NCBI RefSeq assembly: GCF_017302315.1
Contig: NZ_JAFLDT010000004.1
Coordinates: forward strand, 1 to 64,000
Direction: 5' to 3'
Origin: Zoogloea sp.
GTDB taxonomy: Bacteria; Pseudomonadota; Gammaproteobacteria; Burkholderiales; Rhodocyclaceae
Length of the DNA: 64,000 bases
The notes below the pieces were generated by a model. It searched no databases, was not told the origin of the DNA, and saw only the letters and a program-made list of their open reading frames with translations. A program made the translations under genes and the position numbers. Of this stretch, positions 42,961 through 53,242 are shown in pieces (positions within the stretch are counted from its first letter, which is position 1; each line of letters starts with the position of its first letter).

Positions 42961-44130
42961 TCAGGTGCGCAGCGGCGCCCTTATGATCAGGCGGGGGGCC
43001 TTGCGGCGGAGCCACATTCTCAGCCCGGCATAGATGAGGACCAGAGTGAACAGCCCGCCCAGGAGTACGCCGATCCGTCCGGGAAGGCCGAAGGCCGTGC
43101 CGGTATGGAGGGGCGTCTGCCAGTTGAGATAGCTGTCTCCCGGGCTGCTGCGGGTGGCATCCAGGCTGCGCAGGATCTCGCCGCCACGAACGGCCACCCA
43201 GACGGTGCTGCGACTGGTGGTGGGGCGTTGCACCTCGCCGGGCAGCAGAAAGCCGATGGCGTAGCTGTCGTCGGCGCTGCGCGGCAGCCCCACGCGTCGC
43301 AGTTCGCCGTCGGGGAAGACCCCGCGGGCGATGCGGACGGCTTCGTCGGCGTCGACGGGAGGGCGGTCGGACGGCGCGGCTTTTGGCGTCCTGCCCTCAT
43401 CGAGCGGCGATAGGGCGGCGATCAGGGGGCGGACCTCGCCGGGCAGGGCCATGTAGACACCCGTCACGGCCAGGACCAGCAGTACCGGTGCACTGTAGAA
43501 ACCGATGGCACGATGCAGGTCGAAATGCAGGCGGGCCGCGCCAGCCTGCCACTTGATCTGCAGGGCCAGGCCCAGCTTGTTGTGTCCCGGCCACCACAGG
43601 TAGAGCCCGACCAGGGTCGTCAGCGCCCAGAGCCCGCTGGCGATTCCCATGATCCAGAAGCCGGTCTTGCCGAGCAGCAGCTTGCCGTGGATCTCGCTGA
43701 GCAGGTGGATGAGGTTGCGGCGGTCAAGCTCGTGGCCGCTGCGGGAGCGGTCGCCCAGTACCCGGGCGGTGAAGGGGTCGACCAGTACCTGGTGGAAGCG
43801 GCTGCGGCCTTCTGCGTCCGGATCGGGGGCCTTGAAGAGCAGGGCGCCGACGCTCTTCTCACGCCGCGGTGGGAGCAGGGATACGGCCTGCCAGGGGCCG
43901 TCGTCCCGGGCCTGCTGGTGGGCGGTGGCGGCGGCCACGAGCTCGGCAAGGGGGCGGGGCCCGGTGTCGGGCGTCGGCGGCGTGGCGCTGAGGATGTCCG
44001 GGTTGAGCAGCCGGTCGATCTCCTGGCCGAAGACCAGCACGCTGCCGGTGAGCGCGGCGAGGAAGATGAAGCCCATCAGGCCGAGCCCGAGGTAGCGGTG
44101 GAGCAGGGCGATCAGGCGTCGTGGTCTCAT
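42961..44130 (-). CDS. PepSY-associated membrane protein
   Basis: Inner-membrane protein of 389 residues. The first helix is followed by a large periplasmic segment. LLHRYLGLGLMGFIFLAALTGSVLVFGQEID, HLLSEIHGKLLLG and LYLWWPG with LHFDLHRAIGFYSAPVLLVLAVTGV are typical of PepSY_TM proteins, whose His residues may bind heme or iron in reductase-like membrane proteins linked to metal and siderophore uptake. The ATG overlaps the preceding gene by four bases. It is the last gene of the tetrapyrrole cluster and may reduce a metal or corrinoid at the membrane. Confidence 0.85.
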   Translation of the reverse strand: MRPRRLIALLHRYLGLGLMGFIFLAALTGSVLVFGQEIDRLLNPDILSATPPTPDTGPRPLAELVAAATAHQQARDDGPWQAVSLLPPRREKSVGALLFKAPDPDAEGRSRFHQVLVDPFTARVLGDRSRSGHELDRRNLIHLLSEIHGKLLLGKTGFWIMGIASGLWALTTLVGLYLWWPGHNKLGLALQIKWQAGAARLHFDLHRAIGFYSAPVLLVLAVTGVYMALPGEVRPLIAALSPLDEGRTPKAAPSDRPPVDADEAVRIARGVFPDGELRRVGLPRSADDSYAIGFLLPGEVQRPTTSRSTVWVAVRGGEILRSLDATRSSPGDSYLNWQTPLHTGTAFGLPGRIGVLLGGLFTLVLIYAGLRMWLRRKAPRLIIRAPLRT

Positions 44131-45812
44131 GGCGCCCCCTTGGGGACCGGCGTGATCGCGCCGGTGAGCGGGTTGAAGCCGTCCGCCCGGTTCCAGTCCA
44201 CCAGCAGCATGCGCCCGGCGGGGGTGCTGAAGCTGAACTGCCGGCGGCCTGCTACCGCGATGGCGCTCTCGCCGTGGGTGAAGTCCAGCTCCGGCTCGCT
44301 CCCTGTGCGGTTGATGACGACAAGCGGAATGCCGGTCTCGCGGGAGCGGCGCTCCCACACGTCGCCCGGCCCCATGCCGTCCACCGGTGGCCAGTTGGCC
44401 GGGACGATCAGGAGGGCCGCGCCCTGCTCACGCTGGCGGGCGGCGGGCTCGGGCGCATACGTGTCGGCGCAGATCAGCACCCCCACGGGCACGCCATCCA
44501 CCACGAAGGGGTGGCCATCGGTGCCCGCCACGGACCAGCTCTCGGCGCCGCCATGGACGCGCTGCTTGCGGTAGGCGCCGAGGATCTTTCCCTCCCGGTC
44601 GATCACGGCGACGCTGTTGTGCAGCGTGTGATGGCGTGCATCCCGTTCGGCAAAGCCAATGAACAGGGCCACCTTGTTGTCCCGGGCAATGGCGGCGAGG
44701 GTGCTCATCCAGGTGTCCGGAAACGGTGCGATCCAGTCGGTGCCGATGCGTTTGGCGAAGTTGTAGCCGGTCTCCGCCAACTCGGGGGTGACTACCCAGT
44801 CGGCGCCCTGACGGACGGCTTCGCGGACGCCGGCTTCGATCTGCGCACGGTTGGCGGCGATGTCGCCCGGCGTCGGGTCCAGGTGGAGGAGGGCCAGGCG
44901 CAGGTGCCCGCTGGGCTTGGGCAGGGCCGACGGTGGGTCCGCAAAGCGCCGGCTGCCCGGCAGAAAGAAGCCGTTCTGCTTGCCCAGGGATTCGACCACC
45001 GCGCTGTAGGTGGCCTTGCCGATCAGCTCGCCGATGCGGCTGTGGCCGCCGGTGTAGCTGGCGGTGGGCGCACGGGTGCCCGAAACCACGATGATGCTGT
45101 CGGTGCCCGTGCCGGTGGCCTGCGCGCCGGGGGTGTAGGTGCTCTTCACCTGCAGATCCTCCAGGGCGGCGGTCTTGCCTTCGGTGACGGTGATCAGCGC
45201 CCGGGCCAGGGCCGCGTCAGTCAGGCGGACATTGCTGAGGACCAGAATGTTGATGGTGCCCGCGGGCTCGGCGCCTTCGATGTACCGGCCTTCATCCACG
45301 CCGGTGCGGATGGCGTTGCTCTTGGCGCCCGCCGTGGCCAGCACGGTGACGGTGAGCGGGCCATGGCTGCGGGTGACGATGGCCAGGTTGTCCATGTCGG
45401 CGGCCGTGGCCATGTGGGCGACATCGGCCTTTGTTAGCCCGAGGCGTGCGGCGGTGACGCCGAGCGTGTGGTCGGTGTAGGTCTTGCCGCCGCGTCCGTC
45501 CCGGCCATTGAAGCGCGTGGAAACACGTTTCCACAGCTCCGGGTGGGCGCCATGGTTGATGGCGGCACGGCTGTCCACGAGGCCGTCGCTGGTGGATAGG
45601 AGGCGGCGCGTCTCGGGAAAGGTGACGACCAGGGTCTTCTCCCACAATCCTTCCCGCTGGCTACGCTCCAGCCGCGCTTCGGCGGACACCGCGCCGGGAA
45701 GGGGGAGTGTTTCGGCTCGGGCGGCAGAGCTGAATACCATCAGCCCACCGAGGGCGAACAGGGTGCATCTTCGTTTGAGGGCGGGGCCAGCCCGCCGGCT
45801 CCATTTCAGCAT
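44127..45812 (-). CDS. cbiZ: exported CbiZ (adenosylcobinamide amidohydrolase)-nitrilase fusion
   Basis: Protein of 561 residues. Residues 1-33 form a Sec signal (FSSAARA). Residues 60-280 are a CbiZ domain (RLLSTSDGLVDSRAAINH, AADMDNLAIVTRS, GTINILVLSNVRLTDAAL, ATGTGTDSIIV). Residues 303-545 are a nitrilase-superfamily amidase with intact triad Glu344, Lys416 and Cys448. Known CbiZ is cytoplasmic and cuts the side-chain amide of adenosylcobinamide to recover cobyric acid. Here it is secreted and joined to a second amidase. The start overlaps the CobN-like stop by seven bases. I infer that it trims corrinoid side chains in the periplasm. Confidence 0.82.
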   Translation of the reverse strand: MLKWSRRAGPALKRRCTLFALGGLMVFSSAARAETLPLPGAVSAEARLERSQREGLWEKTLVVTFPETRRLLSTSDGLVDSRAAINHGAHPELWKRVSTRFNGRDGRGGKTYTDHTLGVTAARLGLTKADVAHMATAADMDNLAIVTRSHGPLTVTVLATAGAKSNAIRTGVDEGRYIEGAEPAGTINILVLSNVRLTDAALARALITVTEGKTAALEDLQVKSTYTPGAQATGTGTDSIIVVSGTRAPTASYTGGHSRIGELIGKATYSAVVESLGKQNGFFLPGSRRFADPPSALPKPSGHLRLALLHLDPTPGDIAANRAQIEAGVREAVRQGADWVVTPELAETGYNFAKRIGTDWIAPFPDTWMSTLAAIARDNKVALFIGFAERDARHHTLHNSVAVIDREGKILGAYRKQRVHGGAESWSVAGTDGHPFVVDGVPVGVLICADTYAPEPAARQREQGAALLIVPANWPPVDGMGPGDVWERRSRETGIPLVVINRTGSEPELDFTHGESAIAVAGRRQFSFSTPAGRMLLVDWNRADGFNPLTGAITPVPKGAP

Positions 45813-48800
45813 TGCGTTTTCCTTTGCCGCGATCGCAGCAGGATGCCTGCGCCGACCAGCACGGTAAATCCCAGGAGCGCCGCATAGGCCACGGGCTGTG
45901 GCACGGCCTGGGAGAGGGGGTCTTTTTCCTTCATTTCGTAGCCCTGCACTACATCTTGCGGTGCGTCAGCTGTCGAGCTGCCTTCGGCCTTGGCCGGCGC
46001 TGCCGGGGATGTGGCCGGGTTTGCTGGGGCGCTCTGAGCGCCCGAGGCAGACCCGGCCGGGGGTGCCCCAACGGCTTGTCCGCCAGCGGGACGCCCGCCG
46101 GCACCCGGGGCCGGCATGGCCAGGGCATCGGCCATGGCGCGCTTGTCCTGGGCCCTGGCCAGTTCGGTGATCGCTTCGCTGCTGCATGAGTCGGCGTTGC
46201 AAGCCACACCGGCCTCCGCGATGAGCTCCCGGTTCACTTTGTCCAAATGCGCCTTCACCTCAACATCGGCCCGCCAGTAGCCCTTGTTGATGGCCACCAG
46301 CATCTTGTCCACGATGGCCTGGTAGGCCAGCAGGTTCTTTGCCTCACGGAAGCGGTCCTTGACGCCGAGGGCATTGCGGTCGGCCACGTAGGTCTCGTAC
46401 ATCTCCTGCCACTTGGCGCCATCCACCGCTTCAGGCACGGTCACCTGCCAGCCCCAGAGGTGTTCTGTAACCTTCATGATGAAACGGGCACCGCCGTAGC
46501 CTTCCTTGAGCATGGCCTTGACCCACTCGGGGTTGGTGTAGCGGGTGCGTATCTCCCGGCCCATGAACTTGTCCAGGGTTTCGTGCTTGCCGCTCTGACC
46601 GTCGGCCAGGTTGAGGATGTAGGTCTCGGGGGTGTGCCCATTGACCTGGCGGATGGCCATCGCCGTGGCTCCCAGGTACTGGAACACGTCGTCGTTGTCG
46701 AGGGTGCCGAATACGTTGCTGGCCCGGGAGTGGATGGCCGCTTTGGCGTCCTTCAGGGCCATCTTGAAGAGGTCCACGGCGAGTGCTGCGCCCCCGGGGC
46801 GCTCGCCCCAGTAGCCCTGGCCGAACAGGTGGCCGACCCGGTTGAAGTACACATCGGCGATTGCCTTTTCGTCCTTCCAGGTGTTGCTGGCCTGGATGAC
46901 GTTGTCGACGCCGGTGCCGTAAGCCCCGGAGGGCTCGGTGAAGATGCGCACGGCGGCCAGACGGGCGGCATCCGGCGCCGGAATCCCCCGGGCCTCCAGC
47001 AGCTTGCGGGTGCGCTCCACATTGGCATGGACGGGGTTGTCATCCTCGGGCAAGGCCTTGACCTGGCTCACTGCCTCGTCGAGTAGTTGCATCAGGCCGG
47101 GCAGGGCGTCCCGGTACAGACCGGAAGGGACGATGGTTACATCCACTCTGGGGCGACCGAGTTCGCTGCGGGGAATCACGTCCACGCCATCGATCCGTCC
47201 GCGTTCGTCCCAGCGGGGGCGAACCCCCAGCAGGGCGAGGATCTCCGCCTCGGTCACGCCTTCATGGCGCATGGCTTCCGTGCTCCAGAGGTTGAATACG
47301 ACCCGATCGGGAAAGCGGCCGTGACGTTGCCTGTAGTCGGAGATGAACTTCTCTGCCAGGTTCCGGCCCTGGTCCCAGGTGCCAGGGGTGGGTAGCCGCG
47401 ACGGGTCGAAGCCATAGAGGTTGCGGCCGGTGGGCAGGGCTTCCGGATTGCGCAGGGGGTCATTGCCCGGACCCGCAGCCACGTGGCGGCCGGCCAGACC
47501 TGCCACCAGGGCGTCCAGTTCGGCCCGGGCGCTGCTTTCGATCAGGGCGGCCAGCTCGGCTTGCCGGCGTCTGCGCTCTGCATCGCCGAGCTTGCGGTCG
47601 AGGGACAGGATGGCCGCGGCGGTGGATTGCCGCAGTGCTTCGGACGGGGCCACGCCGAAGGTATGCAGGCCGAACGGGGCGTGCTGTTCAGAGACTTCCT
47701 TCAGATAGTGTTCAAGGTGCTCTACCTGTTCGGCGTTCTCCAGGCGGCTGAGGCCCACATCCTTGAGGATCCCGAGCTTGCCGGCCAGGGTGTTGATTTC
47801 TCCGAGCCGGGCGGCAGCGGCAGACTCGCTTTTCTGGGCGGCTACCCCGAAATCGTCGATGAGACCACGCAGGCTGACTAGTTCCGGGTTGAGGGTGGCC
47901 CGGTCGAAGGGCGGGGTGAGATGGGAGATGATGGTCGCCATGCCTCGCCGCTTGGCCTGCAGGCCCTCGCCGATGTCATCCATGATGTAGGGGTAGAGCT
48001 GCGGTACGTCGGCCACCATGGCTTCGCCCGGGTCTGCAGCGGTAAAGCCGACTTCCTTGCCCGACAGCCATTCGTGGGTGGCGTGGGTGCCCACGTGCAC
48101 CATCGCGTGGGCCTTGAAACCCTTTTGCAGCCACAGGTAGAAGGCAAGGTACTGGTGGTGAGGGGGCAGGGCGACGTCGTGGTACATCTTCTTGGGGTCG
48201 CCCTCCCAGCCCCGGGAGGGCTGTGCGGCAAAGACCAGATTGCCGAAGCGCCGGGCGGGAAAGACGAAGTGCGGCGTGCCCCTGGGGTCGCGCCACAGCA
48301 TCACGGTGGATTTCTCGGGTTCGCCCCAGGCTTTGACCATGGCTTCCCGCAGGGCCGCCGGCTGACGGTCGAACCAGCGCCGATACTCCGCGACCGGCAT
48401 CAGGACCGCCTGGCCGCCCCGGGCCAGCTTCTCGAGTGCGCCAGGCGCCCAGTTGCCGATGTTGGTGCCGTGTTCACGCAGGGTTTCAAAGAGGGCGTCT
48501 TCGCTTATCGGGCGCCCATGGGTGTCATAGCCTTCCTGTTCCAGCCGACCGAGGATCTGCCACAGGGAGCGGGGGAGTACATTGAGGTAGGCCGCGCCGA
48601 CGTTTTCCTTGCCCGGGGGGTAGTTGTAGTAGATCACTGCGACGCGCTTGAGGGAATTGAGCTCATAGCGCAGGCTCACCCACCTCCGTACCCTGTCGGC
48701 CAGGCGGTCGATGCGCTCCGGGATCGGCATTTCGGTGAGGTATTCGATGCCGGTCTCCTTGTCCTTCAACCGCTCTTTGCTGGCTACGACGGTGGGGGCA

Positions 48801-49789
48801 ATGGCGCCGGCAAACTCGGCGCCGGACAGCTGCCAGGCCCGTTCCATCAGCGACAGGCCCAGGGGGGAGGCCTCCCACTCCTCGCGGGACTGGCTATATA
48901 GGGAGATGGCGTTGATGACGGGCACATCCAGGTGCTGCATGACCGGAATGGTCCTGGCGGGTACGTTGCCCATCTTGAGTGCCAGCCCGACGATGGCCAC
49001 CACGCGTGCCCGGCCCCTGTCGTCCAGCAGGAAGCGCTCTGCCGGTATTTCCGACGGGTAGCCGAACACCGGGATCACGTTGAAGCCCCGTACCTCGATG
49101 GCCTTGATCATGGCATCAAGCAGCAGGGAGCTGCCGGCCTGGGCCGTGACCCGGTTGAAGACAAGGCCCACCCACTGGCGGTCGCTCCGGTCGGGGTGAC
49201 GGCGGAGATAGGCGTCACGGAAGGATTCGAAGCGGTCGAACACTTCGCCGCTGCCGGGTGCCCAGATGCCGATGGCGGGAAAAGGGCGTGGGGGCACTGT
49301 TTGAAGGGGGAGGCCGAAGTCCCGGGCGAGCATGAGACGGATCATGGCCGCGTAGTTGTCGGCGCCGCCGGCCTGGGCGTACTCCCGCAGGGTTTCGTCC
49401 CGGGTCAGGCCGATGCGCTGTTCGCCCTCTTCATAGGGTGCTCCGACGGCATAGGCGTGGGCTTTGCGTTCACGCAGGCTGGCCACGGCGGGTTCAAGCG
49501 TATTGGCGAGTTCCCGGCCCATGTTGTAGATCAGGCCCACGTCGGCCCGGGCGAGCGCATCGATGTCGTCCTTGCCCGGGCTGCTGGATGAGACGATCCG
49601 GAAGCGCACATCCTTGAGGGCCTTGTCCTGCCGGAGTTGGCGGACCGCGTTCACCGCCGTCTGCATGGACGGGTCGCCGGGAAAGAGCACCACGGACAGG
49701 GGGCGGGCATCGACGGTGCCCGCGAGCAGGATCATCAGCGCGAACGCGGCACGGCAGAGGGGGGCGAGGAACTTAGTCGACGGGAACAT
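45806..49789 (-). CDS. exported, membrane-anchored CobN-like chelatase subunit
   Basis: Protein of 1327 residues, the length and layout of CobN/BchH proteins (TIPVMQHLDVPVINAISLY, MVHVGTHATHEWLSGKEVG, PDRVVFNLWSTEAMRHEG, YGTGVDNVIQASNTW). Unlike biosynthetic CobN it has a Sec signal (residues 1-28, ending VDA) and, after a Pro/Ala-rich linker, a final membrane helix (about 1299-1318) with a basic tail. It is thus periplasmic and anchored. CobN normally needs the CobS/CobT ATPase, absent here. Bacteroidetes HmuS, a CobN-like protein encoded with an ExbB-like and a DUF2149 protein, is the closest precedent. It may insert or remove the metal of a corrinoid or heme. Confidence 0.85.
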   Translation of the reverse strand: MFPSTKFLAPLCRAAFALMILLAGTVDARPLSVVLFPGDPSMQTAVNAVRQLRQDKALKDVRFRIVSSSSPGKDDIDALARADVGLIYNMGRELANTLEPAVASLRERKAHAYAVGAPYEEGEQRIGLTRDETLREYAQAGGADNYAAMIRLMLARDFGLPLQTVPPRPFPAIGIWAPGSGEVFDRFESFRDAYLRRHPDRSDRQWVGLVFNRVTAQAGSSLLLDAMIKAIEVRGFNVIPVFGYPSEIPAERFLLDDRGRARVVAIVGLALKMGNVPARTIPVMQHLDVPVINAISLYSQSREEWEASPLGLSLMERAWQLSGAEFAGAIAPTVVASKERLKDKETGIEYLTEMPIPERIDRLADRVRRWVSLRYELNSLKRVAVIYYNYPPGKENVGAAYLNVLPRSLWQILGRLEQEGYDTHGRPISEDALFETLREHGTNIGNWAPGALEKLARGGQAVLMPVAEYRRWFDRQPAALREAMVKAWGEPEKSTVMLWRDPRGTPHFVFPARRFGNLVFAAQPSRGWEGDPKKMYHDVALPPHHQYLAFYLWLQKGFKAHAMVHVGTHATHEWLSGKEVGFTAADPGEAMVADVPQLYPYIMDDIGEGLQAKRRGMATIISHLTPPFDRATLNPELVSLRGLIDDFGVAAQKSESAAAARLGEINTLAGKLGILKDVGLSRLENAEQVEHLEHYLKEVSEQHAPFGLHTFGVAPSEALRQSTAAAILSLDRKLGDAERRRRQAELAALIESSARAELDALVAGLAGRHVAAGPGNDPLRNPEALPTGRNLYGFDPSRLPTPGTWDQGRNLAEKFISDYRQRHGRFPDRVVFNLWSTEAMRHEGVTEAEILALLGVRPRWDERGRIDGVDVIPRSELGRPRVDVTIVPSGLYRDALPGLMQLLDEAVSQVKALPEDDNPVHANVERTRKLLEARGIPAPDAARLAAVRIFTEPSGAYGTGVDNVIQASNTWKDEKAIADVYFNRVGHLFGQGYWGERPGGAALAVDLFKMALKDAKAAIHSRASNVFGTLDNDDVFQYLGATAMAIRQVNGHTPETYILNLADGQSGKHETLDKFMGREIRTRYTNPEWVKAMLKEGYGGARFIMKVTEHLWGWQVTVPEAVDGAKWQEMYETYVADRNALGVKDRFREAKNLLAYQAIVDKMLVAINKGYWRADVEVKAHLDKVNRELIAEAGVACNADSCSSEAITELARAQDKRAMADALAMPAPGAGGRPAGGQAVGAPPAGSASGAQSAPANPATSPAAPAKAEGSSTADAPQDVVQGYEMKEKDPLSQAVPQPVAYAALLGFTVLVGAGILLRSRQRKTQC

Positions 49790-50114
49790 AGACCACCCTC
49801 CCGTCCGGCAGCTTGTACGCGGTGCCCAGGCGTTCGCCCCGACCGGAGAGCTTCTCGTCGGTGACTTTCGATACCTTGATTTCCTTTCCGCGCTTGGTGA
49901 CGATCTCCATTTCCCCCTTGGCGTTCTTCTTGACCATGGTCACCTCGGAGCTCGGGTCGAGCAGGTCCATCATGTTGTAGGCCATGAACAGGGCGATCAT
50001 CATCGAGACGATGAAGACGATGCTGGCATCGAAGAGGTTGGCGACACCCGCGATGGGGTCTTCGAGGGCCTCACCGTCCAGGGCAAAGCGTCTACGGCGT
50101 TGCAGCAAGCGCAT
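49773..50114 (-). CDS. DUF2149 membrane protein (ExbD-like partner)
   Basis: Protein of 113 residues with one helix (about 28-49, SIVFIVSMMIALFMAYNMM) after DPIAGVANLFD. DUF2149 genes are repeatedly linked to cobN-like and exbB-like genes. Asp29 at the edge of the helix recalls the proton-carrying Asp of ExbD, and the soluble C-terminal half would be periplasmic. It overlaps both neighbours (22 bases with the ExbB-like gene, 17 with the CobN-like gene), which fits one complex. Its function as a proton-driven motor part is inferred. Confidence 0.85.
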   Translation of the reverse strand: MRLLQRRRRFALDGEALEDPIAGVANLFDASIVFIVSMMIALFMAYNMMDLLDPSSEVTMVKKNAKGEMEIVTKRGKEIKVSKVTDEKLSGRGERLGTAYKLPDGRVVYVPVD

Positions 50115-50700
50115 CGTCGGCTCCCTCCATCAGGTGAGGTGCTGGGGTGTCCGCCTGCTGGCCCGCAATGGTCAGCTCGGCGGCGTGGGCCATTTCGCGG
50201 ACGTCTTCCCGCGCCCAGCGCTCCCGGGACAGGGCGATCAGATAGGCCAGCACACCCGCGCCCAGGCCGGCAACGGTGGCGGTGAAGGCAGTAACCATGC
50301 TACCTGCCATCTTGGGTATGTTGCCCTCGGCGAGGGCTGCCAGCGAAATGCCCATGGGGATGAGGGTGCCCATCAGCCCGAGGGCGGGGCCGACCTTGAT
50401 CACGAAGCGGATCCGGTCGAGGCGGCGGGACAGGTTCAGTTCGTGGGCCTGGAGCAGACGCTCGACGTCGATGGCGAGGCGTCTGGCCGGATGGCCCGTC
50501 TTGCGCAGGCGGGACAGGTCGGTCAGAAAGGCCTGTCGTTCCATGAAGTGGCCGCGCCTGCGGAGCCAGCCGTCGTGCAGTGCAATGCCCAGTTGCAGTG
50601 GCATGTAGGCCACGAGGAGGGCGCAGCCGCCGATGACGGGCAGATAGAGCGCGGTGGACACTTCGTAGAGTGTCCGTTCGATCAGCGCGATGAGGTCCAT
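50092..50700 (-). CDS. MotA/TolQ/ExbB proton channel family protein
   Basis: Protein of 202 residues with three membrane helices: one near the N-terminus (ALYLPVIGGCALLVAYMP) and a pair at about 100-160 (KVGPALGLMGTLIPMGISLA, MVTAFTATVAGLGAGVLAYL) as in ExbB/TolQ. It would use the proton gradient to move the DUF2149 partner, and through it could act on the TonB receptor or the CobN-like protein. It is distinct from the exbB at 55662-56267. GGAGA precedes the ATG. Confidence 0.88.
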   Translation of the reverse strand: MDLIALIERTLYEVSTALYLPVIGGCALLVAYMPLQLGIALHDGWLRRRGHFMERQAFLTDLSRLRKTGHPARRLAIDVERLLQAHELNLSRRLDRIRFVIKVGPALGLMGTLIPMGISLAALAEGNIPKMAGSMVTAFTATVAGLGAGVLAYLIALSRERWAREDVREMAHAAELTIAGQQADTPAPHLMEGADDALAATP

Positions 50701-50744
50701 GGGGAGTCTCCAGGTCGGCCCCGCGGTGGGCGAGGCCGGGTCGG

Positions 50745-52757
50745 TCAGAAGTCGAGACGGTAGGCGACGCGGCCGTTTCGTCCGGCCAGGGGGTAGCCAC
50801 CCTTCTCCGAGTAATAGCGGTCGAACAAGTTGTCGATCAGCACGGAGACGGAGCTGTGGCGGTCGAAGCGGTAGCGCACGGACAGATCGGCAACCGCAAA
50901 CGGCGCGTAGCGAATGATGCTGGCACTGTTGCCGTTCCAGTCGTTGTCCTGGAAGTGCCCCACATAACGCAGGCCAAATCGGCTGCTCCAGGCGCCGGAC
51001 TGGTAGTCACCCGCCGCGCGCACCGTGTTGTTGGCGACGTTGCGGATCTCGCTCTGGATTCCGCCGATCTCCTCGGTTCGACGGAAATAATGGGTGCCGG
51101 CCAGACTCATTGTGAGGCTGTCGCTGGCCTTCCAGCGCCCGTTCCATTCCAGCCCTTCCATGCGGGCGCTGTTGGCGTTGGTGTAGGAGAAGTAGCGGTT
51201 GTCCGTGTCTTCGCCTACCTGGACGCGGGTGATGCGGTCCTTGACGCGGGTCCGGAATACGGTGAGGTCGGTGAAGAACGCACCGGCATGCCATTCAAGG
51301 CCCATGTCCCAGGTGACGCTGGACTCCGGACGCAGGCCTGCGTTGCCCGCCAGGACATCGTCCTTGCCGGCTTTGACGGTGAGTGCGGAGCCGGTGAGCT
51401 CCAGCGCTGAGGGTGGCACGAAGCCTTTGCCCACCGTGCCGTGCACCCGTATGCCACCTCCGAGCTTGTGGGTGAAGCCCAGGCTGGGGTTGTTGGTCGT
51501 GAAGTCGGCCTTGCCGGGGGTGAAGCTGTTCAGCAGGGGCGTGCTGAAGGTCTCGGTCTCAATGCGATCATGGCGCAGACCGAAATCGACGGTGGTGTTG
51601 CCCTGATTGAGGTAGAGCGTGTTCTGGGCATACACCCCCAGGCTGCGACGTTCATTGTTGGCACTGCTTGGGGCCTTGCGGGTGCCGTTGGCGTTGTAGC
51701 CGAAGGTCTTCTGCCGGACGCTCTCCTGATCCACGCCGACCACGGTCATAAGATGGTCGTTCCAGGTCCACTGGTCCTGGATCTGCCAGCCGCGGTAGTC
51801 CAGTTCCTCGGCGAAGCTGCGAAAAGGCAGGTAGGGCCGTTCGGCTGCTGTGGTGCTGGTCTTCTTGTACTGCTCATAGGACTGGGTGCCGAAGAAGGTC
51901 CGGGTCGTGATCTGGTGGCCGCCGATGCGACCGGTCAGTTTGAGGTCGGTGCCCTCACGGTCCATGTCCTTGTTGGTCTGGGAGTTGGTGCCGCTGGCAA
52001 GGTCGCCGGGAGTGGCAATGTCGCGCCCCCGATAGAGTTCGTTGTTGACCTGTATGCGCCAGTCATCGCTCAACTTGAGCCCCAGGCGCAGGGCGTGGTT
52101 CTGTTGGCTGTACGTGGTGTTGGGGCGTCGCGTTCCCTGTCCGGTCCGGAAGTCGGCGTTCTGTTCGAACAACGAGCCGGCATAGTCAAAATCGAGGCGT
52201 TCGCTCAGGCTGCCCCCGATGGCGGTGCGCAGCTCGTGGGTGTCGAAGCGTCCGGCGGCGATCTGCGCGTAGCCGCCGATAGGGCCACTGCGCTGGCGGG
52301 TGATCAGGTTCACCACGCCGCCCATTGCGGACGAGCCGTACAGGGCCGACGCGGGCCCCTTGAGAACTTCGATGCGTTCCACCTGATCCATGTTGACCAG
52401 GCTGAGGTTGGTGGCCATGGCCGGACGGCCGTCGATGAGCAGCAGGGAGCGCTTGTTGATGCCCGAGAACTCGGGCCGGAAGCCCCGGATGCCGATGCCG
52501 GAGAGGTTGCCGGGGTACTGGATGACATCAACGCTGGTGTGCTTCTTGAGCACGTCGGTCAGTTCCCGGGAGGGCGTGCGATCTATGTCCTCGGTGCTGA
52601 CCAGTTCGATGCGCTGGGGGGTGTCGTCCAGGCGGGCTTCGGCCCGGCGCCCGGTGACGACAACGGTGTCTAGCTGGGTCGGATCCTGGGCCTGGGCCCA
52701 ACCGGCGGCCAGGGAGGACGCGACGAGGGTGAGGGAAAGTGAACGGATTCCGTGCAA
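50745..52757 (-). CDS. TonB-dependent corrinoid/tetrapyrrole receptor (BtuB-like)
   Basis: Outer-membrane receptor of 670 residues. The signal ends AQAQ near residue 24, then a TonB box (DTVVVTGRR), a plug (VLKKHTSVDVIQYPGN, RSLLLIDGRPA, RIEVLKGPASALYG) and a barrel. It resembles BtuB and heme receptors. A cobalamin riboswitch 160 bases upstream and a downstream CobN-like/CbiZ pair point to a corrinoid ligand. The start is TTG at 52755-52757, seven bases after AGGAG; no ATG is nearby. It probably passes its ligand to the periplasmic proteins encoded next. Confidence 0.9.
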   Translation of the reverse strand: MHGIRSLSLTLVASSLAAGWAQAQDPTQLDTVVVTGRRAEARLDDTPQRIELVSTEDIDRTPSRELTDVLKKHTSVDVIQYPGNLSGIGIRGFRPEFSGINKRSLLLIDGRPAMATNLSLVNMDQVERIEVLKGPASALYGSSAMGGVVNLITRQRSGPIGGYAQIAAGRFDTHELRTAIGGSLSERLDFDYAGSLFEQNADFRTGQGTRRPNTTYSQQNHALRLGLKLSDDWRIQVNNELYRGRDIATPGDLASGTNSQTNKDMDREGTDLKLTGRIGGHQITTRTFFGTQSYEQYKKTSTTAAERPYLPFRSFAEELDYRGWQIQDQWTWNDHLMTVVGVDQESVRQKTFGYNANGTRKAPSSANNERRSLGVYAQNTLYLNQGNTTVDFGLRHDRIETETFSTPLLNSFTPGKADFTTNNPSLGFTHKLGGGIRVHGTVGKGFVPPSALELTGSALTVKAGKDDVLAGNAGLRPESSVTWDMGLEWHAGAFFTDLTVFRTRVKDRITRVQVGEDTDNRYFSYTNANSARMEGLEWNGRWKASDSLTMSLAGTHYFRRTEEIGGIQSEIRNVANNTVRAAGDYQSGAWSSRFGLRYVGHFQDNDWNGNSASIIRYAPFAVADLSVRYRFDRHSSVSVLIDNLFDRYYSEKGGYPLAGRNGRVAYRLDF

Positions 52758-52840
52758 GGTCAAACTCCTGTTCGACTGCCTGCACGCTCTCTGGACGACA
52801 TGAACGATCCCGGCGTGACCCGTGCGCGGGCCATGCCGTA

Positions 52841-52919
52841 CCTGTCGCCATCCGCAACCCCGCAGACAGTCCATGGTCAAGCGCCACCACGCAGGGCGTG
52901 ACGGCGAACTGGCGACAGG
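52841..52919 (-). promoter_or_regulatory. candidate expression platform of the cobalamin riboswitch
   Basis: On the minus strand CCTGTCGCCA (52910-52919), the 3' edge of the aptamer, is the exact complement of TGGCGACAGG (52841-52850). Ten base pairs could form across a 59-base loop that itself folds. Binding of cobalamin could decide between this stem and the aptamer fold. The effect on translation or termination is not clear. Confidence 0.45.
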
Positions 52920-53138
52920 CCGGTCTCCGGGCTTGCAAGATTTGAAGCATCGCCTTCCCAGGCTGATCGCGCATGTCCGGGCGGACACCACGTTGCGGCC
53001 CAGTGACTGGTGGTTCGAGACCACCCAGATGTTTCCGTACTTGCTTACCGTTGCGGGGGCAGCCGGGGATTTGCGCCCTGAATGGGGCGCGCACCTCGTT
53101 CCCGTTTCACCCGGGGTGGAATTCCCCGGGCACCTGAA
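52915..53138 (-). ncRNA. cobalamin riboswitch
   Basis: The minus strand carries the conserved blocks in order: GGGTGAAACGGGAA, GGTGCGC, GGCTGCCCCCGCAACGGTAA (the B12 box region), the CCAGTCACTGG hairpin, GGGAAGGC and GCAAGCCCGGAGACCGGCC. These match the adenosylcobalamin riboswitch. It lies before the TonB receptor and so probably represses the whole tetrapyrrole cluster when cobalamin is plentiful. Ends are approximate. Confidence 0.95.
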
Positions 53139-53149
53139 GCTCGGCGCGG

Positions 53150-53155
53150 ATTATA
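53150..53155 (-). promoter_or_regulatory. -10 element before the riboswitch
   Basis: TATAAT on the minus strand lies about 12 bases before the 5' end of the aptamer, the right place to start the leader RNA. The -35 region is poor, so only the -10 is assigned. Confidence 0.55.
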
Positions 53156-53242
53156 GCGACAAATGCAGGCCGGCGGACATGCGTGGGGAAGCTGGGAAAG
53201 GCGTGGAAAGGGCTAGGCCATACCTCGGATGTTCTGCCTTCC

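Follow-up and report, generated by a model that had tools for sequence, protein, structure and literature searches.

Why should genes for a TonB-dependent receptor, an ExbB-like channel, a DUF2149 protein, a CobN-like chelatase, a fusion of CbiZ with a nitrilase-superfamily domain and a PepSY membrane protein follow one another, in this order, behind a cobalamin riboswitch, and where would their products act? The question is raised by the locus at 42961-53155 (minus strand) of the first 64,000 nucleotides of contig NZ_JAFLDT010000004.1 of Zoogloea sp. (GCF_017302315.1), a stretch referred to here as the window. The host is a freshwater bacterium, and its genome (G000) is a 4.5 Mb draft, 95% complete. 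The analysis described below identifies the locus as a real, recurrent and mostly riboswitch-controlled corrinoid operon, and on balance we believe that it is repressed by vitamin B12, scavenges corrinoids and processes them outside the cytoplasm.

Pfam and covariance-model scans located every part of the six-gene cluster that a preliminary description had placed behind a riboswitch (Table 1), and the overlaps, export signals and C-terminal anchor given there were also found. Four junctions overlap, by 23 nucleotides (nt; ExbB/DUF2149), 17 nt (DUF2149/CobN), 7 nt (CobN/CbiZ) and an ATGA motif (CbiZ/PepSY), and the sole non-overlapping junction among the six genes is the 44 nt between the stop of the receptor gene and the start of the ExbB gene behind it. 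Judged by this anatomy, the six genes are one operon, and it holds an Hmu-like module, that is, a receptor, a predicted exported and anchored CobN-like protein, an ExbB-like protein and DUF2149. The PepSY open reading frame (ORF) that runs to 44358 begins too far upstream, and 44130 is the start that matches the ATGA overlap. The receptor ORF to 53024 extends into the riboswitch, and the gene more probably starts at 52874. With the NCBIfam models for B12, heme and siderophore receptors it stays below cut-off, so its sequence does not identify the ligand.

Table 1. Riboswitch and genes of the locus, with positions in the window.
Feature	Position	Strand	Evidence
Cobalamin riboswitch aptamer RF00174	52901..53152	-	cmscan match to the full model (1-189), 87.9 bits against a gathering score of 31.5
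TonB-dependent outer-membrane receptor	50745..52874	-	PF00593 and PF07715 above cut-off; start 52874 inferred
MotA/TolQ/ExbB-like inner-membrane channel protein	50092..50700	-	PF01618 (MotA_ExbB) 47.4 bits, cut-off 22.9
DUF2149 protein, ExbD-like	49773..50114	-	PF09919 110.3 bits, above cut-off
Class I chelatase of the BtuS type (CobN/HmuS-like, subclade A), predicted to be exported and anchored in the membrane	45806..49789	-	PF02514 (CobN-Mg_chel) 1021.7 bits
Predicted exported CbiZ-nitrilase fusion (CbiZ, adenosylcobinamide amidohydrolase)	44127..45812	-	PF01955 162.3 bits (cut-off 27) and PF00795 (CN_hydrolase) 88.2
PepSY_TM inner-membrane protein, candidate periplasmic reductase	42961..44130	-	PF03929 224.5 bits

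The CobN-like protein (P0003, 1327 amino acids) has a signal-like N-terminus, judged by eye for this protein and its relatives from a basic start, a hydrophobic run and small residues, and ends in a hydrophobic helix. Export was scored with a hydropathy script (17-residue means), which is distinct from a signal-peptide predictor. A C-terminal helix was found in all 26 CobN-like rows from modules that reach the C-terminus (scores 1.60-2.95; L078 and L154 are one gene within the 26), in none of 21 cytoplasmic-type CobN/BchH rows (L188-L207 and L209; 0.99 or less, with L201 and L202 stopping short of the usual C-terminus), and in none of eight full-length CobN of archaea (at most 0.58). The count omits L065, L066, L072, L144 and L151, which a contig or locus end truncates; two rows that are cut at the N-terminus (L073 and L104) have the helix. 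In two trees, of 59 and 55 rows, the module proteins form one predicted exported clade apart from cytoplasmic CobN and BchH (SH-like approximate likelihood ratio test, SH-aLRT, 99), and the clade divides into subclades A (the window protein and its relatives), B and C. It is joined by an HmuS-type protein of Aureibacter, encoded next to an HmuY gene. The long branch of this protein (2.37) was flagged as unsure by the program, and its identity to the window protein is 30%. The host genome encodes one exported-type CobN-like protein of each subclade, on contigs C100 (A), C123 (B) and C12 (C). A separate cobalamin riboswitch immediately precedes the subclade C gene (L066, G000:C12, 1-3150 and 3268-3490), and the subclade B gene (L065, G000:C123, 1-4002) adjoins a TonB receptor gene; each of the two CobN-like genes is truncated at a contig end.

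The CbiZ-nitrilase protein likewise has a signal-like start. In a comparison of 80 CbiZ rows, an N-terminal hydrophobic stretch scored at least 1.47 in 44/44 scored proteobacterial rows, Geobacter included, and at most 0.79 in 20/20 archaeal and Dehalococcoidia rows, of which none looked signal-like (0/20). The proteobacterial rows counted are those that retain the N-terminus and lack a long upstream domain, leaving out 12 long rows (mostly delta-proteobacterial), L134 and L153 (no N-terminus), a second CbiZ of Propionivibrio, which scores 0.46 and is likely a cytoplasmic paralogue, and L154, the N-terminus of which lies outside the scored stretch, yet is signal-like in look. With the cytoplasmic CobN/BchH and archaeal CbiZ proteins as controls, the extracytoplasmic placing given in the preliminary description held up, as far as sequence can tell, and side-chain processing of corrinoids outside the cytoplasm is likely. 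CbiZ itself is said to be a cobinamide amidohydrolase, from the work of the Escalante-Semerena group, and its domain is well above cut-off in the window protein; the differences are the predicted export and the fused nitrilase-superfamily domain. The Glu-Lys-Cys triad of that superfamily, which from the usual motif we take to be E344, K416 and C448, is kept in 36/36, 36/36 and 35/36 aligned rows, respectively (one gap). The fusion is rare (2/250 genomes of the order sample). In Dechloromonas denitrificans it stands at the end of a row that reads riboswitch, receptor (BtuB), FecCD (BtuC), ATP-binding cassette (ABC) ATPase (BtuD), Peripla_BP_2 (BtuF), CbiZ-nitrilase, followed by CobB. Other CbiZ fusions were also seen. 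In L178 (9041-11050) a periplasmic binding protein, Peripla_BP_2, is fused to CbiZ, and eleven further long CbiZ ORFs resemble it, the domain scan having covered L178 among these twelve; a CbiZ-DUF4019 fusion (L139, 6463-7701) adjoins a subclade A module.

Riboswitch control follows the subclades. Of the scanned loci, 19/24 in subclades A and C have a cobalamin riboswitch ahead of the operon, versus 0/7 in subclade B (Fisher p = 3e-4, uncorrected for kinship), the positive loci being 8/11 in A (the window, L126, L144, L151, L178, L217, L249 and L252) and 11/13 in C (L066, L080, L081, L102, L103, L105, L106, L107, L114, L118 and L120), and the negative ones of B L065, L070, L071 and L074-L077. 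Subclade was set by the tree, or by 50-72% identity to P0003 for L249, L252 and L253. The count omits L072 and L073 (partial CobN, outside the tree) and L250 (outside the tree), where no riboswitch was found, and the scan did not cover L082, L123, L219, L220 and L254-L258. Zur-type sites, sought with the consensus GTTATAnTATAAC at up to two mismatches, gave a single match in 21 loci, a chance-level result and a weak negative, and therefore no zinc link is demonstrable for subclade B. The host genome has four cobalamin riboswitches, including that of the operon; one of its loci (L068, 5298-5508) has such an element before the ribonucleotide reductase alpha and beta genes. A thiamine pyrophosphate (TPP) riboswitch was seen at L079 (10346-10476, G503) before a TonB receptor gene adjoining a subclade C CobN-ExbB-DUF2149 set.

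The operon recurs elsewhere. Six genes identical in kind and order to those of the window are found in Azonexus (L127), and rearranged versions occur in Propionivibrio, in Accumulibacter-type and Dechloromonas-type genomes, in Arenicella and in one delta-proteobacterium. Co-occurrence of the genes, a check put forward in the preliminary description, was borne out for the CobN-like protein with DUF2149: in the class sample (369 genomes), PF02514 is present in 20/20 genomes with DUF2149 above cut-off and in 21/349 others. CbiZ occurs in 10 genomes of this sample, DUF2149 in 21 and both in 5 (Fisher p = 8e-5), with the two on separate contigs in three of these five. A contig search with an alignment of three CbiZ proteins, of which the best 80 of 176 confirmed matches were kept, gave 79 distinct loci, sorted by title into 59 from diderm bacteria, 17 archaeal and 3 from Dehalococcoidia; within this best part, CobN-like, ExbB and DUF2149 genes are present in 11/59 diderm loci (L114, L118, L120, L123, L126, L127, L139, L144, L151, L154 and L178), in about six arrangements, several loci being short, many close kin, and the CobN-like gene running up to the end of the locus in L144 and L151. 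As a check on CbiZ adjacency with less bias, the family sample (61 genomes) was queried with CobN; one subclade A locus besides the host's was found (G660, L249), where CbiZ is absent. Another family member (G667) has two nearby CobN-like genes and one ExbB-DUF2149 pair (L250, 6751-19085).

Among closer kin, a Zoogloea relative (L109) with flanks 92-95.5% identical to those of the window has positions 53242 and 45836 about 20 bases apart (L109 9956/9977). It lacks the riboswitch-receptor-ExbB-DUF2149-CobN stretch and keeps the CbiZ-nitrilase and PepSY genes. In L110 and L112 the match to the window breaks off at almost these positions, and the PepSY gene is missing as well. Gain of the stretch in the window lineage and its loss in L109-type relatives would leave the same pattern, and either may have happened. 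In 9/17 archaeal loci (Bathyarchaeota and relatives: L155, L158, L164, L167, L169, L174, L179, L185 and L187) a cytoplasmic-type CobN is followed directly by CbiZ, the CobN frame being split in two in L179. These pairs were considered as examples of the same system and rejected, as their CobN lacks the C-terminal helix and falls in the cytoplasmic clade, and their CbiZ lacks a signal-like start.

The host looks like a corrinoid salvager without evident ring synthesis. No match to CbiC (precorrin-8X methylmutase) was found in its draft genome, and CbiC was found in none of 18 among 28 module-bearing or related genomes, the host included. Above the NCBIfam cut-offs are CobQ, CbiB, CobS, CobT and CobU, and CobB is represented by a partial, sub-cut-off match cut near a contig end. 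Behind a riboswitch of its own lies a B12-receptor-like gene, with the beginning of a BtuC-like gene after it, both below cut-off, and a BtuF-like protein, also below cut-off, is encoded elsewhere. Two genomes with subclade C modules (G388 and G535) similarly show no CbiC match and have CobB and CobQ genes adjoining the module, and cobamide genes adjoin the subclade C loci L106 and L107. That CobB is kept where ring synthesis is not evident suggests that such cells handle corrins whose carboxylates are free. The corrinoid link made in the preliminary description is upheld by the riboswitch, by CbiZ, by the cobamide genes around related modules, and by the BtuB-BtuC-BtuD-BtuF row before CbiZ-nitrilase in D. 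denitrificans.

Parts of this system are already known, with function unproven. The closest named kind of chelatase is BtuS, described as a third CobN type (Rodionov et al. 2003, via PMC6460266), and the window protein is likewise set apart from CobN and ChlH/BchH. The assignment rests on the description in PMC6460266, the BtuS proteins of B. fragilis being outside the tree. BtuS1 and BtuS2 of that species are predicted to be periplasmic and membrane-anchored; they differ in that BtuS was predicted to serve metalloporphyrin salvage and was tested in B. fragilis with regard to heme iron, and CbiZ, nitrilase and PepSY partners are not mentioned for it in the portions of that paper drawn on here (PMC6460266). 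HmuRSTUV of Bacteroidota (in the parts of PMC12583661 and PMC10100974 used here) shares the receptor, an exported anchored chelatase, ExbB-like HmuU, ExbD-like HmuV and a chelatase-wide His, whereas the window operon lacks HmuY and HmuT genes, is under riboswitch control and has CbiZ-nitrilase and PepSY in addition. A passage of PMC10100974 also describes Hmu-like operons that carry a cobalamin riboswitch and are 'perhaps' involved in cobalamin metabolism. A further close system is the cobN-exbB-exbD-tonB cluster on plasmid pSZ77 of Geobacter (T.) lovleyi, for which the authors found no CobS/CobT and wrote, in the section concerned, that its 'exact biochemical role is unknown' (PMC3403914). 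This module (L217, found by the CobN query) has a subclade A CobN-like protein 49.5% identical to that of the window, a receptor, ExbB and DUF2149, with two riboswitches in front, cobamide genes around, and cobalt import and ring genes nearby; it differs by adding DUF2162 and an ExbB-ExbD-TonB set, and no CbiZ was found in the 33.5 kb inspected. Also described, on the evidence of the excerpts cited, are a Novosphingobium TonB receptor behind a riboswitch, followed by cob genes, which is a different system (cobalt review, PMC7689651), and cbiZ and cobN in one variable Chlorobium population, not linked as in the window (PMC8620254). The titles and abstracts of open-licence PMC literature yielded neither an exported CbiZ nor CbiZ with a CobN-ExbB-DUF2149 module, and no paper on an enzyme for decobaltation was found in that literature. 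The statement that no described system has all these parts therefore stands for the full set, within that literature, and falls for the core, which is in print; new are the link to an exported CbiZ, the three-way subclade split and the ring-less salvage context.

How the parts might work together can be outlined as follows. At low adenosylcobalamin the riboswitch would be released, and the receptor would bring corrinoids into the periplasm; these, with the action of CbiZ, are the firmest steps. The PepSY_TM protein may then reduce the bound metal, as its ferrisiderophore-reducing relatives do. It has His residues at positions 11, 148, 206 and 342, which may be comparable to the heme-binding membrane His of FoxB-type ferrisiderophore reductases. 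Reductases of the PepSY_TM kind are treated in part of PMC13038864. On the periplasmic face the BtuS-type protein would move the metal, and ExbB-DUF2149, using the proton-motive force, would take over the role of the ATPase CobS/CobT and drive the conformational cycle of this protein; these two steps are the weakest. The preliminary description had cast ExbB and DUF2149 as the energizing pair. Sequence supports a stator-like pair akin to ExbB-ExbD, TolQR or MotAB: besides the MotA_ExbB domain of the ExbB-like protein, the DUF2149 protein has one hydrophobic helix starting with an invariant Asp, and P20, N26 and D29 are invariant across 18 sequences. The AlphaFold model of DUF2149 is poor (predicted template modelling score, pTM, 0.26). 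That the pair drives the CobN-like protein is a conjecture. CbiZ would remove the nucleotide loop to give cobyric-acid-type products, the nitrilase domain may hydrolyze one more amide, and the product would enter through a Btu-type ABC importer and be rebuilt by CobB, CobQ, CbiB, CobU, CobS and CobT. Regarding the metal, correction, in which corrins that lack a metal or hold the wrong one would receive cobalt, is favoured over cobalt harvesting, because the host is without evident ring synthesis and dismantling of the cofactor under B12 repression would be self-defeating. In its full form this would be a cobaltochelatase in the periplasm of ring-less bacteria, powered by the proton-motive force: cobalt would be inserted or exchanged there with ExbB-DUF2149 as the motor instead of the ATPase, side chains would be trimmed by CbiZ-nitrilase, and CobB, CobQ and the late pathway would finish the product inside the cell; the corrins taken in may be metal-free, wrongly metallated or side-chain-damaged. 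We put this full form forward tentatively, as a possibility on the doubtful side.

Several observations weigh against corrinoid processing outside the cytoplasm, or against its metal step. Hydropathy at the N-terminus fails to part exported from cytoplasmic CobN (0.98-2.60 in module proteins versus 0.26-2.14 in the cytoplasmic type), where the C-terminal helix succeeds. No riboswitch was found at L127, L139 and L253 (subclade A) or at L078 and L079 (subclade C); in the Azonexus locus L127 the first 3200 bases gave no B12 riboswitch even at E up to 1. Four of 11 subclade A loci (L217, L249, L252 and L253) have no nearby CbiZ, and six of the seven that do were fetched by a CbiZ query, and CbiZ is therefore a frequent, not an obligate, partner. 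Four other Zoogloea genomes (G615 and G622-G624) have CbiZ-nitrilase and no subclade A protein. CbiC is present in 10/28 module-bearing or related genomes, and ring-lessness is therefore not general; the 95% completeness of the host genome likewise makes its absences uncertain. HmuS, the only relative with demonstrated chemistry, removes metal from heme as a recombinant protein with NADH (in the part of PMC12583661 used here), and hence a motor may be unneeded. Finally, metal movement by the CobN-like protein, its direction and its powering by ExbB-DUF2149 are points that we infer, and the putative status of substrate, metal and direction counts against the proposal.

The HmuS precedent also favours a dechelatase that pulls cobalt or another metal from corrinoids, with the metal as the nutrient, which we consider unlikely here. 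HmuS (9d26) is the best PDB match of the window protein (472.6 bits versus 425.7 for CobN) and groups with the exported clade, albeit on its long branch; its axial ligand Met-79 corresponds to M90, a Met in 8/8 subclade A sequences, and the cobalt import and ring genes near the T. lovleyi module would fit a need for cobalt. The second axial ligand, His-254, is replaced by M273 (five Met, two Val and one Leu in subclade A), although this region is loosely aligned, since the HmuS of Aureibacter likewise departs from these residues in the two columns. Within the HmuS motif LSLDHxxEFMGG, His-1209 is replaced by D1034 and Glu-1212 by Q1037, the residues of canonical CobN (Asp 13/14, Gln 12/14). HmuS residues 690-926, the methionine-rich insertion in domain IV, are unmatched, falling in a gap between window residues 721 and 748, and more than 200 HmuS residues have no counterpart. 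By the residues that define HmuS the window protein is therefore not HmuS, though it may work like it. Free cobalt would moreover be useless for corrin synthesis in a host where no CbiC was found, and B12 repression suits a supply of B12 rather than of cobalt.

A simpler role, which we regard as quite unlikely, is that the CobN-like protein only binds the corrinoid, and ExbB-DUF2149 moves it in a handover from receptor to CbiZ or importer, with no metal chemistry. The position of its gene between those of the receptor and the processing enzymes, the resemblance of ExbB-DUF2149 to transport-driving stators, and that of the head and neck domains of class I chelatases to periplasmic binding proteins (noted in PMC12583661, within the part used here) would all suit such a relay. 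The putative catalytic residue H569 (HmuS His-538, chelatase-wide) is, however, invariant in all sequences compared, D1033/D1034 are kept in 8/8 subclade A sequences, and the host has the BtuF-like protein and the start of a BtuC gene elsewhere.

That heme or another metal complex is the substrate, with riboswitch and CbiZ incidental, is improbable. The same core occurs in Hmu operons, and the receptor scores 225.8 bits with the heme receptor family model versus 145.7 with the B12 model, both sub-cut-off. P. aeruginosa PA1922-PA1925, with receptor, CobN-like, ExbD-annotated and DUF2149 genes together, are zinc-controlled in the Zur regulon (according to the relevant parts of PMC4542158, PMC8456098 and PMC9431628), a difference from the window, and PA1923 is outside the tree. 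Against heme stand the lack of an HmuY gene in the operon, the riboswitches before subclades A and C but not B, the cobamide genes adjoining the module in T. lovleyi, L106 and L107, and the linkage to CbiZ in several lineages. Strong matches to PF02514 and to NCBIfam CobN models would suit the usual cobaltochelatase subunit of the aerobic de novo pathway to cobalamin, a reading that is very improbable and already contradicted: every score is below the NCBIfam CobN cut-offs, the C-terminal helix and separate clade set the protein apart from all 21 cytoplasmic-type rows (two of them cut early), and no CbiC was found in the host. A look for an ATPase partner (CobS/CobT or ChlI/D), which covered the operon alone, found none.

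Cobamide exchange shapes microbial communities, and corrinoid remodelling is usually regarded as cytoplasmic. If CbiZ and a class I chelatase do act in the periplasm, foreign corrinoids could be reworked before import across the inner membrane, and metal-free or damaged corrins would become usable by cells. The BtuS-type proteins, predicted in 2003 and with no corrinoid function demonstrated in the literature surveyed, would gain a role, and a tetrapyrrole enzyme would here be driven by the proton-motive force. Clean tests of these ideas are possible at this locus, as it combines a seemingly ring-less host, a riboswitch read-out, and relatives that have the CbiZ gene without the receptor-to-CobN stretch.

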